A stretch of DNA of 64,000 nt from Dromaius novaehollandiae. Its lineage: Eukaryota; Chordata; Aves; Casuariiformes; Dromaiidae. Shown piece by piece: positions 3,716 to 63,513 of this stretch (positions are counted from its first letter, which is position 1; the number at the start of each line of letters is the position of its first letter). The stretch is taken from contig NC_088101.1 in the NCBI RefSeq assembly GCF_036370855.1, positions 5,215,501-5,279,500 on the forward strand, given 5' to 3'. Position numbers and translations under genes: made by a program. The notes beneath the pieces were generated by a model, which was given only the letters and a program-made list of their open reading frames with translations, was not told where the DNA came from and did not search any database.

Positions 3716-3888
3716 ATGTCAGTTCCACTGGATGACTCATTATCACCTGGTCAAGTTATGAAAAAACATGAAGTGCTAGAGAAAGACAAGAAAAGAAGGA
3801 TGGCGCTTAATGACTGTCCAAGTGCACCCTTGAATGAAGAAAGCCCCCCCAGCAGGGGCTACAGCAGTACGCTGACCGCTATGCCAGC
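3716..3888 (+). other. STAP1: STAP1 linker exon with lost splice donor
   Basis: A 173-base exon (57 codons plus 2 bases) that starts MSVPLDD, carries PGQVMKKHEVLEKDKKRR, and ends at MP plus GC. The phase of the next exon fixes the end at 3888. The bases after it are ATAAGC, where GTAAGC is expected, so the +1 donor G is A. This is a G-to-A change in a former CpG. If the intron is retained, translation ends at once (GCA TAA; stop at 3890-3892), which would leave a product without an SH2 domain. Confidence 0.85.
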
Positions 3889-4456
3889 ATAAGCTCTGAC
3901 TGAACTATACCAACCCCAACCTGACTAGAAAGCCTTGCCTTCTTCTTTCAAAGTATTATTTTCCTATAGAAGTTTAACATTCAACTGTTGTACAAGAGTT
4001 GCTTGATAGTTGATGAGCAAAATCTACCTTTAAATCTGCCTTTATGGAGATTTCCTAAGGGGAAGATTATTGCTGCAGGTTTTCTATAATGCATTTTTGT
4101 TTTGAAAACAATGAGAGTGTAGCAAATTGCTCATTTAGAAGAAAATACTGATTCTTTTTGAGTAATTCAACTTAATTTCTGGTTACTCATCTCACATTCT
4201 TTGCAAGGCTCCAGAAACCGTATCTGAACCAAAGTGCCATTTTCTCTTTGAGAAGGCCAGAGCACTGCTGTCCTGAATTATATTTCTATAATAGCATTGT
4301 TCAATAAGAGTCTTTCAGATGTCCTGCCTACCCTGGACAAGCCTAGCATTGTTAGGATGCATTAGCCTGGTAGACCACATCACTCTTTGTACAGCTCAGA
4401 ATGACAGGGCCTTGCTAGCATGTATTTGTGCTGTTTCTCTCCTCTCTTCTACATAG

Positions 4457-4585
4457 GTGTTTCCACGCAGTATCTCAGCAAGAAGCAACAGAGATGTTAT
4501 AAAAGAACTCTTCATGTGGGAATTTGATCCTGTGGCCTGGCAGCAACAGTAAGAACTAGACAATCACAGTTCGACAAGTGCTAGA
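4457..4585 (+). other. STAP1: STAP1 first SH2 exon with two stops
   Basis: A 129-base exon (1 + 42 codons + 2) with acceptor CATAG and donor GTAGGT. Its frame reads CFHAVSQQEATEML, stop, KNSSCGNLILWPGSNSKN, stop, TITVRQVL. Human STAP1 has the same 42-residue layout with Gln at the first stop, Tyr at the second, and LRPGS where this copy has LWPGS. That Arg is the SH2 betaB5 residue that binds phosphotyrosine. The exon is therefore both untranslatable and stripped of its ligand-binding residue. Its length is a multiple of three and its ends are phase-compatible. Confidence 0.87.
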
Positions 4586-5277: not shown

Positions 5278-6318
5278 TGCCCCATTCATAAAGCACTACA
5301 GAGTAATAACCAAAGAAGCAAGTTTTGTCATTGAATTGGAAAGACAGGTAAGTGAGCATTTCCCTTGCTGCAGATTCTTAAGCAGGTGTAAGGAAAATTA
5401 CTTTATGAAAAACTAGAAAAAACATAGTAAATTTCTACCTATAAGTTGTGATAGTCAAAGTAAAGTATGTAGAGAAATTTTGCTTCTTACTAGTCCAACT
5501 AACCTGATCATAAAGAATAAATATCCTTCTGAGAAGAGAGGACCTAGACAAGTAGAAAAAAAACACATTGACCTCTTCTATCTCCCTTTCTACCAACAAT
5601 AAAATCAAACCTCCACCCCCATCCCCAAGACTGTTTGAAAACGGCTTCAATTCTTTCAGTTCCAACCTCAGTAATAAGCCTGAAAACTGAGGTCCCATCT
5701 CAGAAGGACAAAGTTCAAAGTGCACATAATGTAATTTTGAGTAATAAAATTAGCTTGGTTGAAGCACTACAAAGGCTGTAAAGACCTCTTACTTTAGTTT
5801 AAAACAGTTTTCTTCCACTTTTCATAAGGCTTATTATGTAATGAATGGCCTGAGAAATATCCTATTAGTTAGAAAAAACATGTGCTTTCTTCTCTGCTGT
5901 TGCACCAGCTGCTGGAACAGCAAGAGCAGCCAGGTGCATACAGGTCCAAACCTCTTGATTAATTTACTGATTTGATGGAAGGGAAGGAGTTGTATATTTA
6001 AGGGTCAAAACATTGCCATAGGTAGCATCCTAGACCTCACTGCATTTAAATGCTGGATGTAAATCCAGTATAGGCTGTTTGAGAAACATTGTTAGGAATC
6101 CCAGCCTGCCAGCAAGTTTTTGAAAATGTATTCTCACCATAACCCACACAGTATGTTTTGTCTTGAGTGCGGGGTGGGTGTTTTTTTCATGAAACAGGTG
6201 ACATTGCCAAGCCTTCCTGATGTCATCAATTACTTTGTGACCGAGACCCAAGGGAACTTGAAACTATTTGTCATGCCTACATATGGCAACATGCTGCAGA
6301 GGGCACAGCATTTCCAAG
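5278..6318 (+). other. STAP1: STAP1 SH2 exons 2 and 3, intact
   Basis: Two exons, 5278-5347 (acceptor TTTCAG, donor GTAAGT) and 6198-6318 (acceptor AAACAG, donor GTGAGC). The first encodes APFIKHYRV...FVIELERQ, the second VTLPSLPDVINYFVTETQGNLK. Both match the C-terminal half of the STAP1 SH2 domain without stops. The intron between them shows no other exon. Confidence 0.85.
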
Positions 6319-8099: not shown

Positions 8100-8257
8100 G
8101 TGTGCCTACCTCAGGGCAGGCGCCAATAAAGACCAAACAGGAAACTATCTGCGGTCCAGGAGAAAGACCACTTGTGGCCCCTGTTCCTAACCAAATAGTA
8201 CCACTGAGTCAGGAATGTACTGCCCCTGCATCAAGAGCATCCAGAGCAACAGAGTAA
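8100..8257 (+). other. STAP1: Candidate STAP1 terminal exon
   Basis: The acceptor TTCATGCAG has a good pyrimidine tract. The preceding exon ends in phase 1 (CAA G), and joining it here gives Gly followed by 51 open codons and a TAA at 8255-8257. The tail contains PTSGQAPIKTKQE and ERPLVAPVPNQIVPL: polar and proline-rich, and not obviously similar to the short human tail. Identity rests on splice phase and position only. The alternative is read-through of the previous exon to the stop at 6399-6401. Confidence 0.55.
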
Positions 8258-19839: not shown

Positions 19840-22800
19840 CTACCCATGGAAAAAAGCAAAACTAGTCATCAGAAAACTGAAGGTGTCTTGAACATAAGCC
19901 ATAGAAAAATAGAATCTTAACAAACTAAAAATTTTAAGTATTGGAACCCGGTACAGGACTTCTAATTTGCTTTTCCATGCTAGAAGGGAAAACACCCCTC
20001 CCAATGCCAACGACAACAGTTGTTAGACATGAGTAACAAAAGAGAAATATCAGTGAGGATGTAAGAATTTATTTTCCTTGCAACACCAGGAATAGATTTT
20101 GGACTATCCAGTGGATGATTCTTACTCCCTCTACCTCCTTTAGTTCTCTCCTTTGATAATTCCCTCTGTAAGCCTTGTTATTCTGTAACCATTTCATTAT
20201 GGGCTGAGGCACGTGAACAGAATATTCTCACTGCTGGTTCTTCAGTGGCAAGTTGACCCATGGTAACTAAAAGCCCATGTGCTTTTAGTGTTGGAGAGAT
20301 GGTTAAGGGTTGGCTCTCTGTGGCTTAAAGTCAAGCTAATCTTTCTCCCCTGTAGTCATGGGCTATGAATGCACCCATGCAGTAGTTGCTCAGGACCTTT
20401 TCATGTGGCCAAGTGTTAAGATTGGATTTAAACACCCACATTTTAATATATCTAGAAGATGCTGAAAAAGACCATACTAGCCTTCACAATTAGGACAACT
20501 TCAGATTGATTCCTGTAAGAAATAATTCTTAACCTTCTCATATCAGAATTTCTTTCAGTCTGTCTGGGATCTAGTCGGGAATCCCATGGAATAGGGCCCT
20601 AGAAGAAAGAGGGGTCCCAGAGAGCTGGTTATATTCAAGGATGGCCTCCTCCAAACTCAAGAGCAGTGCACCCCAGTGAGCAAGAAGTCAAGTAAAGGCA
20701 GCAGGAAACCTGCATGGATGAACAAGGAGCTCCTGGCTAAATTCAAACAGAAGAAGGAATACACAGAGGGTGGAAGCCAGGACAGGGCACTTGGGAGGAA
20801 TATAAGGATGCCATCTGAGTATGCAGGGATGCGACTAGGAAGGGCAAGGCCCATTTGGAGTTGAATCTGGCAAGGGATGTCAAGGACAGCAAGAAGGGCT
20901 TCTTCAGATACATCAGTAGCAAAAGGAAGACTAGGGAAAATGTGGGCCTGCTGCTGAATGGGGCAGGGGCCCTGGATACAGAGAAGACAGTTACTGAATG
21001 CTGCCTTTGCTTCAGTCTTTACTGCTAAGACCAGCCCTCAGGAATCCCTGACTTTGGAGACCAGGGAGAAAGTCTGGAGAAAGGTACATTTTCCCTTGGT
21101 CGAGGAGGATTGGGTTAGAGATCATTTAGGCAAACTGGACATCCACAAGTCCATGGGCCCCAACGGGATGCACCCATGAGTGCTGAAAGAGCTGGCGGAT
21201 GTCATTGGTAGGCCACTCTCAATCATCTTGGAAAGGACATGGAGAACAGCAGAGGTGCCTGAGGACTGGAAGAAAGCTAATGTCACTCCAGTCTTCAAAA
21301 AGGGCAAGGAGGAGGACCCAGGGAACTACAGGCCAATCAGCCTCACCTCAATCCCTGGAAAAGTGATGGAACAGCTCATCCTGGATGCCATTTCTAAGCA
21401 TGTGAAGGATAAGAAGGTGATCAGAAGGAGTCAGCATGTATTTACCAAGGGGAAATCATGCTTAACCAATCTGATAGCCTTCTACGATGGAATGACTGGC
21501 TGGGTAGACGAGGGGAGAGCAGTGGATGTTGTCTACCTTGACTTCAGAAAGGCTTTTGACACTGTATCCCATAACATCCTCATAGGCAAGCTCAGGAAGT
21601 GCAGACTAGATGAGTGGACAGTGAGGTGGACTGAGAACCAGCTGAACAGCACAGCTCAGAGGGTTGTGGTCAGTGGTGCAAAGTCTAGCTGGAGGCTTGT
21701 AGCTGGCGGTGTCTCCCAGGGGTCAATACTGCGTCCAGTCTTGTTCAACTTATTCATCAATGACCTGGATGAAGGGACAGAGTGCCTCCTCAGCAAGTTT
21801 GCTGATGATACAAAACTGAGAGGAGTGGCTGATGCACCAGAGGGCTGTGCTGCCATTCAGAGGGAACTGGAAAGGCTGGAGAGTCGGATGGAGAGAAAAC
21901 TCCTGAAGTTCAACAAAGGGAAGTGCAGAGTCCTTCACCTAGGGAGGAATAACCTCATGTACCAGTACAGGCTGGGGGGGCTGACCTGCTGCAAAGCAGC
22001 TCTGCGGAGAAGGACTTGGGGGTCCCTGGGACTGCAGGTTGACCATAAGCCAGCAAGGCGCCCTTGTGGCTAAGAAGGCCAACAATGTCCTGGGTTGCAT
22101 TAGGAAGAGCATTGCCAGCAGGTCAAGGGAGGTGATCCTCCCACTCTACTCAGCCCTGGTGAGGCCACACCTGGAGTACTGTGTCTAGTGCTGGGCTCCC
22201 CAATACAAGAGAGACATGGAGCTGCTGGAGGGAATCCAGTAGAGGGCTACTAAGATGATTAAGGGACTGCAGCATCTCTCCTCTGAGGAAAGGCTGAGGG
22301 AGCTGGGCCTGTTTAGCCTGCAGAAGAGAAAGCTAAGGGGGGGATCTCATCAATGTGTGTAAGTATCTGAAGGGAGGGTGTAAAGAGGATGGGGCCAGAC
22401 TCCTTTCAGTGGTGCCCGGTGACAGGATGAGAGACAATGGGCACAAAATAAAACACAGAAAGTTCCATCTGAACATAAGTAAAAACTTCTTTACTGTGAG
22501 GGTGACTGAGCATTGCAACAGGTTGCCCAGAGAGGTTGTGGAGTCTCCATCCTTGGAGATATTCAAAACCCAACTGGACACAGTCATGGGAAACATGCTC
22601 TAGGTGACCCTGCTTGAACAGGGCGATTGGACTAGATGGTCTTCAGAGGTCCCTTCCAACCTCAATCATTCTGTGATTCTGCAAGATCATTCCTCTCCTT
22701 AGAGTTCTGTGCCCTGCTGTCTGCTCACAGTCATCATGACTATACCTATGCATAACAGAGAATCCTAAAATTTGCAGGAATCTCAGAAATAAAGCAGCAT

Positions 22801-31800: not shown

Positions 31801-34800
31801 ATGCAACCAACACCAGTTGGAAGTGGGATGCCAACATAGTCTAGGTATTGTCTAAAATGATATTGGATTAGAGGCATGAAGCCTTCTCCACACAGAAGTA
31901 CATATGAGTTGAACTCTCAGTGGAAGCACAGGACAGGGAACAACAGCCCAGAAAAATTATTGGGCATGAAAACCTACCTGTATATGATGAGGTCGAAAAA
32001 GAAACTGCCTGTTGAGGTTGGATTTCTCTATCAAGTCTGGATCTGTAATTGTAACCTAAGTCAGAAAGGGCAAAAGCAACAGCTGAAGTTATAACTTAAG
32101 CATAGTGTTGAGCAATACTCCTCATGAAATCTATACAGAAACTTGTCAAAATAAAACACTTCTGTTGCCATCCACCGTGGCTAAAACCGCTGCCTACACC
32201 AGTGCTGGCTGATTAAAACCTAAGGATAGCAAGGCTGCTACAAGCATATTCTGCTTCTAGTTACACACTTACTCTACTTAATGCTAAAACCATTTTCCCT
32301 CTACCAGAACTCAACCTGAAATGAAACTCTAACTTTTAACAACACTTTTTTGTAGTCTCTAAGCATTTAATTATTCTTTGTCACATGACTGTTTCTTGGG
32401 CAAAGTGAAGTCAATGGGTGCATGTGACTTACCAATCCTTTGTCTTGCCCAGTACCAACACCAAGAAGTGCAAAGTTTTTTAACATTTCACAGCCTATTG
32501 CTCCACAGCCAACCTAGAGAGAGTAACATTTTCAGAGTCAGAAACGTAAGTGAAAACCACTAAGTGAAAGTGACAGAAGCAATCCAGGAGTTTTTGTAAG
32601 GTGTTAGGCATAGCTTAACATAGGTCCGGGATGAACTGACCAGAGGTGACACTTCCAGATCTGCTGCTTACAAATGAAGGAGAGCTGGTTAGGAACTAGA
32701 TGCAGGGTCAAGGAGAGAACTACCAGTAGCTGAGAAGAATCAAACAAGGGACCCCTGGAGAAATCAACACACACAAAAACACAAGACCTGACAGGATGCA
32801 TCCAAGGGTGCTGAGAGCTGGCCAATGTCATGCAGGCTGCTCTCCATCATCTTTGAAAAGTTGTGGAGGTCAAGGACACCCCCCAGTGACTGGAGAAAGG
32901 CAAATGTTACAGCCATCTTCAAGAAGGACAATTTGGGGAACTACAGCCTCATCAGCCTCACATTGGTCCCTTCGACAATCACGGAGCGAGCCCTCTTGGA
33001 AGTCGTGTCTGAACACATGATTGAGGAGACGGTGACTGGGAACAGCCAGCATGGATTCACAAATGGTGAACCATACTTGTCAAGCTGATTGCCCTCTATG
33101 ATAAAATTACTAGATGTTTGGACGAGGGGAAAGAGTGCTACATTATGCACCTTGATTTTGGCAAGGCTTTCAACACAGACCCCCCCCCAGTACCCTTGCA
33201 TCCAAGCTGGGATGTTATGGTTGAGATTGGTGGGCTAAAAGATGGGTGAAAAACCGGCTGACTCAAAGGGTAGTGGTTTATGATTCATACTCTGCCTGCA
33301 AGCTGGTTAGAAGTGAAGTTTCTCAGCAGTTTGTATTGGGATCTATCCTGTTTAATAATTTTATCCTATGTCCTAGAGGAGACTGAATGTGCCCTCATCA
33401 AGTTCAGTAATGAAAAAGTTCCCTATCCGGGGAGAGCAGCTGCTTGAGAGCAGGGCTGCCGTTCAGAGGGACCTAAGCAGGCAATGGGAACCCCCTGAAA
33501 TTCAGGAAGGACCAATGCAGATTCCTGCAGCAGGGATGGAATAAGCCTTTGCTATGGCACAGCCTGGGCAGGCAGTGGTGCTGCTGAGATGGTTTCCTGG
33601 CAGACAGCAAACTAAACATCAGACAATGCCCTGGCAGCAACGAAGATGAAGGGCACACTGGGCCGTACTATCAGAGGCATAGACAGTAGATCGAGGGAAG
33701 TGATTATTCGCTTTTACTCAGCACTTGTTAGACCATATCTAGAATTCAGCATCCAGTTTTGGGCCCTCCAAATACAAAAAAAGCTGTTGAGAAGTTTGGG
33801 CAAACTCAGCGGAAGACCACTAAGACGGTCAGGGGACTGGAGTACTTGCCCTACGAAGAGAGGCTGGGGGAGCTGGGCTTCTTTAACCTGGAAAAGAGAA
33901 GGTTTGGGAAGGGACCTAACAGCAGCTTCCCAAAACCCGAGAAGGTTATTGCAAAGACAAAGCCAGGTTCTTTAGAGGTGCACAACAGAAGGACAAGAGA
34001 CAATGGTCAAAAATTGAAATAGGGAAGGTTCTGACTTAACATACTGAAACATTTTTTCCGCCATGCAAGTAAACAGGCACTGAAACAGGTTGTCCAGAGA
34101 TGTCATGCAAGCTCTGTCCTTGGATGTTTTCAAGGCCCAACTGGATTCCCAACTATGAAGCTACCTCCAGAATCTAAGCAGGAGAGACTGTGCTCCAGGC
34201 AACTTAGACAAGTCCTATGCCAATTCTGGACCATTAACTCTGCAATGACACAGGTAATCAGGGCTAATCTCACTAATTTGAAGACAGTTGGCATTAGCTG
34301 TGTTAGCAAAGAGTACTTGCAAGAAGCCTAACAATGTCAGTCATACTCACCAAGAAAACATTCAAATCATGCAGCTTCTGGCACAGAGAGTCTCCAATAC
34401 AAGCCCTCAAGGCATCATACCTATCTCCCCTTTGCAAGCATAGGGGACAAAAACAGAAGAGTAGCAAGTTGTCATTTATCCTGTTAGTACCACTGATGCC
34501 AAACTGGACTTGGATGTGAACTGAGAGAATCTGACTGAGTCCCCTATAACTACTACTCCTCCCATGATCAAAAATAAGACACACATTCTCACCTCAGAAA
34601 CCTGTCCTTTCAGCAGCTTACACTGAACTAATTTAAAAAAAACAAGCGAGCCTGTCTGAGAATCATATGTGAGCAGTACATAAAACAGCACATTGCATTT
34701 ATATTTACCGTGGGAGAAATTCTTCATAGCTTGTCTTTTCTAGCGGTGTAACAATGTCTAACATATCTATATATAGCTGTAAGAGGGAAAAAAAAAACTC

Positions 34801-48481: not shown

Positions 48482-50089
48482 CTAGAAGAATTACAAAAAG
48501 AAAGAATATGGTTATCCTGGAAGCCATTTCACAGACCGTATCCCCTTACCCCCAATTCTTCAACGGAAGAATCACAAAATGCAAAAAGCAATGTTACATA
48601 ATAGTCATTTTGACCATTAAGAAACCTACAGATCAACACAGCACTGAGGCAATTAAAATGCACAGAAGCCAAAAGACAAGAACCCCCAAACCTTCAACTG
48701 ATGATTTCAGAATACAGAGAGGTATATTAATTACCCCACTGAGGAGTCCCAAGATTTAATTCTTGTATTTCCACAGTTGGATTTAGTAAACCTAAAATTT
48801 CATTTTTTGTTAGCAACTGCAAGCTATTGAACTTGTATCTGCTTGATTGCTTCTTATCTGAAAGAGAAGACGGGGATCTCAGAACAGCTAGGCATAGTTA
48901 TTTGTGCTGCATTATTTCTATGTTAACTGAAAATACTTAAGAAATCGGCTACTGTTATACCTAACTCAAGAGTCACTACCCAGAAGCACTTTTGAAAAAA
49001 CTGTGATGTATAAGTTAGTGGACAATACCCAAAAGGTAATACAATTTATTTCTTTTAAAAGTCATACTGTAAGCTCTGAATTAATGCAACATTTAATCAA
49101 GACATCAAGTTGAAGAGTTAAACAGGACTTTAAGAGTATAGTATTTGCGCTATTAAGGCCTTCAGTCAGCAAAGATCTTTTTATTGCTAAATTACCTTAG
49201 TGATAACTAAGCACGGGGATTAGGAAGAAACTCTGCCTCTGGGCAGGCTGTTCCTTAGTTATGTAGCCTGGGAACTGGCCCTTCCCAGATCTGGTAGTGA
49301 CCATCACCACGTACTGGGCAAGCACAACCGACCTCACATCTGATCCAGCACATCCTCTTACAACTCCCTACCAACAGTCTTGGAAACTAGGATTTGGAAA
49401 CAAGGGTGACAACCTTTTCTCTAAAGAGCTTGAAAGTAAAGGCCCAGAAATACTATGTAGTTTTTCCTGCTGAGATCATGGATGCGCAGACATACCCAGT
49501 GACAGCTTTCAAATTGGATAATGCTGCCTGAGGGTCAACTCTTTTCAGTTTTTTTCAGTATCTTTTTTTTTTTGCTGTTGTTCGTATGGCTCTGGAACGC
49601 ACTGTAGCATTTCTAAAGTGCACCTCCTGCGGCCCATAACCACTTGGATCAAATTAGGCCCAAAAGTCCTAGCCCCCTCCAGGTTTTCTGGTGGCCAGTT
49701 GGATAGTGCCACAGCAGGGCGACAGGAGACGGAGCTAGACGGGAAAGCAAGCCACAAACATCGCCAGTTGAGTTATTTCACAGGTTGGACACCACCCGTC
49801 ACATGCCAGTGAGCATGCAGTGCACAACGTGTGCCTGAAAGCCCCTTCCGGGCCATGACAGCCCAACGCAAGCACCCCTGGGGCAGCTCCCCACAACAAC
49901 ATGGGCGCTCTGGGGCTCCCCAGCATAGGGGCAAAACACATCTCGCCAAGAGGGCTTCGTGGCACCGCCAGTCAAGCGGCTCGCCCGCTGACAAGACTGC
50001 GCTAAGCTACTCCTGTAAACCTGGTGCTACTTCTCACTGGAGTGCAGCCCCTATTGAACCCACTGCAGACAAAGGAGTGTGATGCAGGC

Positions 50090-56884: not shown

Positions 56885-63513
<6,629 letters not shown>

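Follow-up and report, generated by a model that had tools for sequence, protein, structure and literature searches.

A probable unitary pseudogene of the signalling adaptor STAP1 in the emu

Introduction

STAP1 is a signalling adaptor of B cells and myeloid cells and is encoded by a single-copy gene in mammals. A 64,000-nucleotide stretch of the emu genome (C4:5215501–5279500; hereafter the window, in which short coordinates are counted from its first base) carries a STAP1-like gene with an interrupted reading frame, which raises the question of whether the gene has been lost in this bird. If so, the emu would be a natural STAP1 knockout among living birds, evidence that B cells and myeloid cells can do without the adaptor on an evolutionary timescale and a caution against any presumption of STAP1 signalling in the emu lineage. 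The question was addressed in a single assembly of 1.468 Gb in 271 contigs. The alpha-A globin encoded on C14 of this assembly has PDB 3wtg, an emu haemoglobin, as its top match among single globin chains (305.7 bits, against 272.6 for the second), surpassed by six human fused double-chain globins that align twice (391–401 bits). Over the last globin exon 3wtg agrees at 42 of 42 residues, and it is also the top single chain over the first 40 residues, so that the sequence is likely to come from the emu or a close relative such as a cassowary.

Results

Gene structure and orthology

The start of the window falls inside the gene, with exons 1 and 2 lying upstream of it. These two exons were sought by tblastn with a human STAP1 query in the 20 kb that precede the window, and both were among the best matches. 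Exon 1 (C4:5212156–5212278), located ∼3.2 kb before the window, has an initiation codon with A at position −3 and G at +4, as well as a TAG at codon 13, whereas exon 2 (C4:5215306–5215380) is open. The donor of the latter exon, GTTAGT (C4:5215381, 120 bases before the window), retains the GT and is weaker than the consensus, which may or may not be decay.

All exons within the window are on the forward strand. The PH domain is encoded by exon 3 (1619–1732), which is open, in phase, flanked by AG and GT and matched by the PH structure of human STAP1 (1x1f), and by exon 4 (2403–2459), which completes the domain and is likewise open and supported by phase and by the match to 1x1f. The open linker exon 5 (3716–3888) ends in phase 2. 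It is followed by the first SH2 exon (exon 6; 4457–4585), in which three of the changes described below are located, and by two further open SH2 exons (exon 7, 5278–5347; exon 8, 6198–6318, which completes the SH2 domain). The likely last exon (8100–8257), ending with TAA at 8255–8257, was placed by frame and acceptor. When joined, the seven exons of the window maintain one phase across all junctions, broken only at 4500 (TAA) and 4557 (TAG). The frame of the complete nine-exon chain is 1,020 bases long and in phase, with three internal stops, and its introns are all bounded by GT and AG, save that the intron at 3889 starts with AT.

Human STAP1 was the best match for both domains. The SH2 part aligned to human STAP1 (3maz) without gaps over 95 residues (110.6 bits, E = 2.9e-31), compared with 49.7 bits for STAP2 (2el8), while 1x1f was the sole match to the PH part at E-values up to 0.001 (E = 3.7e-21). 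Pfam searches were uninformative, with no match for the PH part and three weak ones, all below the cut-offs, for the SH2 part (a kinetoplastid PH-like family, E = 0.0099; SH2_2, E = 0.012; SH2, E = 0.091), so that the identity of the gene rests on the 3maz and 1x1f matches. The adjoining gene is UBA6, aligned in pieces from 48489 to 14327 on the minus strand; STAP1 and UBA6 are also neighbours in mammals. Judged by its preference for STAP1 over STAP2 and its position beside UBA6, the gene is the STAP1 orthologue. Inspection of repeats between 1600 and 8400 returned nothing relevant to the STAP1 question.

Lesions in the reading frame

The linker exon ends with GCCAGC at 3888 and is followed by ATAAGC (3889–3894) in place of the expected GT donor. 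In the first SH2 exon, TAA (4500–4502), TGG (4533–4535) and TAG (4557–4559) are all in the phase continuing from the linker exon and occupy positions of Gln, Arg and Tyr, respectively, in human STAP1; the Arg is shared by human STAP1 (3maz) and STAP2 (2el8), and we take it to be the phosphotyrosine-binding residue common to SH2 domains. These are the four lesions listed in the initial annotation, and each of them was found where it had been reported. The Arg-to-Trp change is of uncertain weight, since a stop precedes it and it may have arisen as a passenger.

A further lesion lies outside the window. Translation from the exon 1 ATG terminates after 12 residues at an in-frame TAG (codon 13; C4:5212192), 7.8 kb away from the SH2 stops. 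The description of all the other exons as open and in phase is thus correct for the window and incorrect for the gene. Codon 13 of human STAP1 specifies Arg. As no Arg codon can become TAG by a single substitution, a change by way of another codon in birds is implied. The disabling changes therefore amount to three stops and one donor, plus the missense change to Trp; there are no frameshifting insertions or deletions in the frame. Two of the three stops lie within a single 129-base exon; we draw no inference from this mild clustering.

Two ways of splicing the intron at 3889 by other signals were considered and rejected by eye. For AT–AC splicing, the nearest AC upstream of the acceptor (4451–4452) would join GC to ATAG, creating a stop (GCA TAG). 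The GC lying two bases upstream makes a donor (CCA|GCATAA) far from the consensus, and its use would shift the frame of the SH2 exon, which then runs into a stop after 31 codons.

The gene thus appears to be null in three respects: a product of 12 residues when read from the ATG, a linker exon with no donor and an immediate stop, and an SH2 domain with two stops and without its Arg. Where the initial annotation had confined the loss to SH2 function, the damage to that domain is evident, and the exon 1 stop extends the loss to the whole protein. It might be argued that a remnant product persists, either as a PH-only protein or as a form skipping exons 5–7. Read-through of the linker exon does meet an in-frame TAA (3890–3892) directly after Met-Pro-Ala, exons 2–5 are open, and the lengths of exons 5–7 (173, 129 and 70 bases) add up to a multiple of three. 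Nevertheless, the TAG at codon 13 would halt both forms. They could be made only from a different first exon, or from a later ATG that lies within the PH domain and whose use would disrupt its fold. We consider such a product the least credible of the alternatives discussed here.

Search for a second copy

When the SH2 exon was searched as DNA against the whole assembly, the only match was the exon itself. A protein search (E-values up to 10; 10 candidates scored), with the translation of the broken gene as the query, produced seven matches, of which six were at the STAP1 locus and the seventh, at 35% identity, was at C25:3481448. The SH2 part of the latter locus aligns to human STAP2 SH2 in three pieces (44–58% identity) whose exon parts are open and retain the Arg; the second piece extends back into an intron, and a stop lies in that intron stretch. 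By these alignments the C25 locus is STAP2, the paralogue with an SH2 domain, which, unlike emu STAP1, has open SH2 pieces and the conserved Arg. The intron between two of its SH2 exons (excerpt L010, ∼1650–2350) is apparently filled by a degenerate tandem repeat, giving readings of the type 'GWHQD.GP'.

An intact second STAP1, which would have contradicted the idea of a unitary pseudogene, was thus not found in the assembly by either the DNA search or the protein search with its 10 scored candidates, the only other match being STAP2. The nine exons with introns in place rule out a processed pseudogene, and a duplicated pseudogene was rejected, no other copy having been found in the assembly. 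The single match in one assembly is uninformative about other alleles, and a null allele segregating in the species might by chance be the one assembled. Five changes on one haplotype would, however, be many for a young polymorphism, and we regard this explanation as very improbable.

UBA6 as a control for sequence quality

Errors of assembly or base calling, with STAP1 intact in the animal, would be another explanation for the lesions, and the neighbouring UBA6 offers a comparison. Using a human UBA6 sequence as the query, ∼1,000 human residues were aligned in ∼31 pieces, and no stop was found inside the exons; two alignments extend into introns, one of them across a stop. GT and AG were found by eye within a few bases of the piece ends, and no splice site was broken among those that could be judged. 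The alignment covered the human protein apart from residues 1–21, 79–86 and the last five, and the inspection of splice sites covered the acceptors apart from two or more, including those of the pieces at 48489 and 34449.

In favour of such errors, the data come from one assembly and three of the five changes fall within 60 bases. Against them, the 1,020 coding bases of STAP1 hold four disabling substitutions and none was seen in ∼3,000 coding bases of UBA6, a comparison made post hoc. If four disabling errors were scattered randomly across the combined coding sequence of the two genes, the probability of all of them falling in STAP1 would be ∼0.004 (a quarter to the fourth power); this figure is too favourable, since STAP1 was selected on account of its lesions. 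Furthermore, insertions and deletions, the usual errors of long reads, are absent, and the exon 1 stop is remote from those in the SH2 exon. Assembly or base-calling error is, in our judgement, about as improbable as the segregating allele.

Age of the probable loss

The age of the loss was estimated with a model that counts the paths to a stop codon, a broken GT or AG and a lost ATG in the present sequence, the Trp change being omitted. Eight settings were used, combining an indel ratio of 0.05 or 0.1 with four mutation models, all of them assumed. Four lesions and no frameshift are best fitted by 0.023–0.034 neutral substitutions per site; the approximate intervals span 0.007–0.08 over the eight settings, and without the indel term the estimate rises to 0.047–0.055. 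At a rate of 1–2e-9 substitutions per site per year, the best values correspond to ∼10–35 million years and the intervals to ∼3–80 million years. The loss had been called recent in the initial annotation; given an interval of roughly 0.007–0.08, this can be maintained only in a relative sense.

Identity to human STAP1, exon by exon, is 15/38, 11/19, 19/30 (part), 27/43, 10/23 and 17/29 (part). The damaged exon (27/43, with the lesions counted as differences) has diverged from human no further than the exons around it, a pattern compatible with all of the estimated ages.

Discussion

Where the SH2 part of the emu gene has two stops and a Trp, human STAP1 has sense codons, and the emu gene in addition lacks the linker donor and carries a stop in exon 1. 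With these lesions present in the assembly, an apparently clean UBA6 beside them and no second STAP1 found, the proposal made in the initial annotation appears sound: as far as sequence comparison can tell, emu STAP1 is very probably a unitary pseudogene, a null copy of the orthologue beside UBA6 with no second copy found in the assembly. Three observations do not sit easily with this conclusion. By the time four substitutional lesions had accumulated, ∼2–5 frameshifts would be expected and none is observed (probability of none 0.009–0.13 under the assumed indel ratios); the damaged exon shows no extra divergence; and the exon 1 TAG is not reached from any Arg codon in one step.

The likeliest course is a relaxed need for STAP1 in the emu lineage. 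The gene would have been released from selective constraint in an ancestor of the emu. This would most likely have happened between a few million and some tens of millions of years ago, and the changes would have built up singly, as ordinary substitutions. It is conceivable, although we would not favour it at present, that the loss took place in an ancestor shared by emu and cassowary, or still earlier in palaeognath history, leaving STAP2 as the sole family member. A whole clade of birds would then run its B-cell and myeloid signalling without STAP1. Lineage-specific loss of an immune gene is an ordinary kind of event in birds, and the interest of the present case is modest unless the loss marks a whole clade of palaeognaths.

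At least one other bird has probably kept the gene, since chicken STAP1 is named among the mRNAs up-regulated in infected trachea (PMC11053446). Comparable losses are described for other bird genes. STK33 is a unitary pseudogene in neognaths and is kept by palaeognaths (PMC4509753); as proposed here for STAP1, one lineage of birds turned a vertebrate gene into a unitary pseudogene, but the gene is a different one and the probable loss described here is in a palaeognath. The loss of CNR2 in parrots (PMC9727682) and of MDA5 in several birds (PMC8619217) resembles the probable loss of STAP1 in being a lineage-specific loss of an immune-related gene, and differs in the genes and lineages concerned. 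Among the matches listed for the open-licence PMC literature, as far as their displayed text goes, no report of STAP1 loss in the emu or any other bird was found, and none of those on the STAP1 SH2 domain in the context of the B cell receptor concerns birds by its title.

Other features near the locus

Several unrelated features lie in or near the window. An open stretch of 297 aa on the forward strand (21180–22073) matches reverse transcriptase (Pfam RVT_1, E = 5.3e-26) and presumably belongs to an element of the CR1 type; another forward-strand open stretch (33616–33975) resembles, by eye, the end of a CR1-type element. On the minus strand, a trypsin-like exon (59499–59843; Pfam, E = 4.2e-14) is perhaps part of the TMPRSS11 cluster, which lies near UBA6 in mammals. 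Outside the window, an open stretch on the minus strand (excerpt L002, 7208–7534) resembles CENPC, by eye only; CENPC is the other neighbour of STAP1 in mammals.
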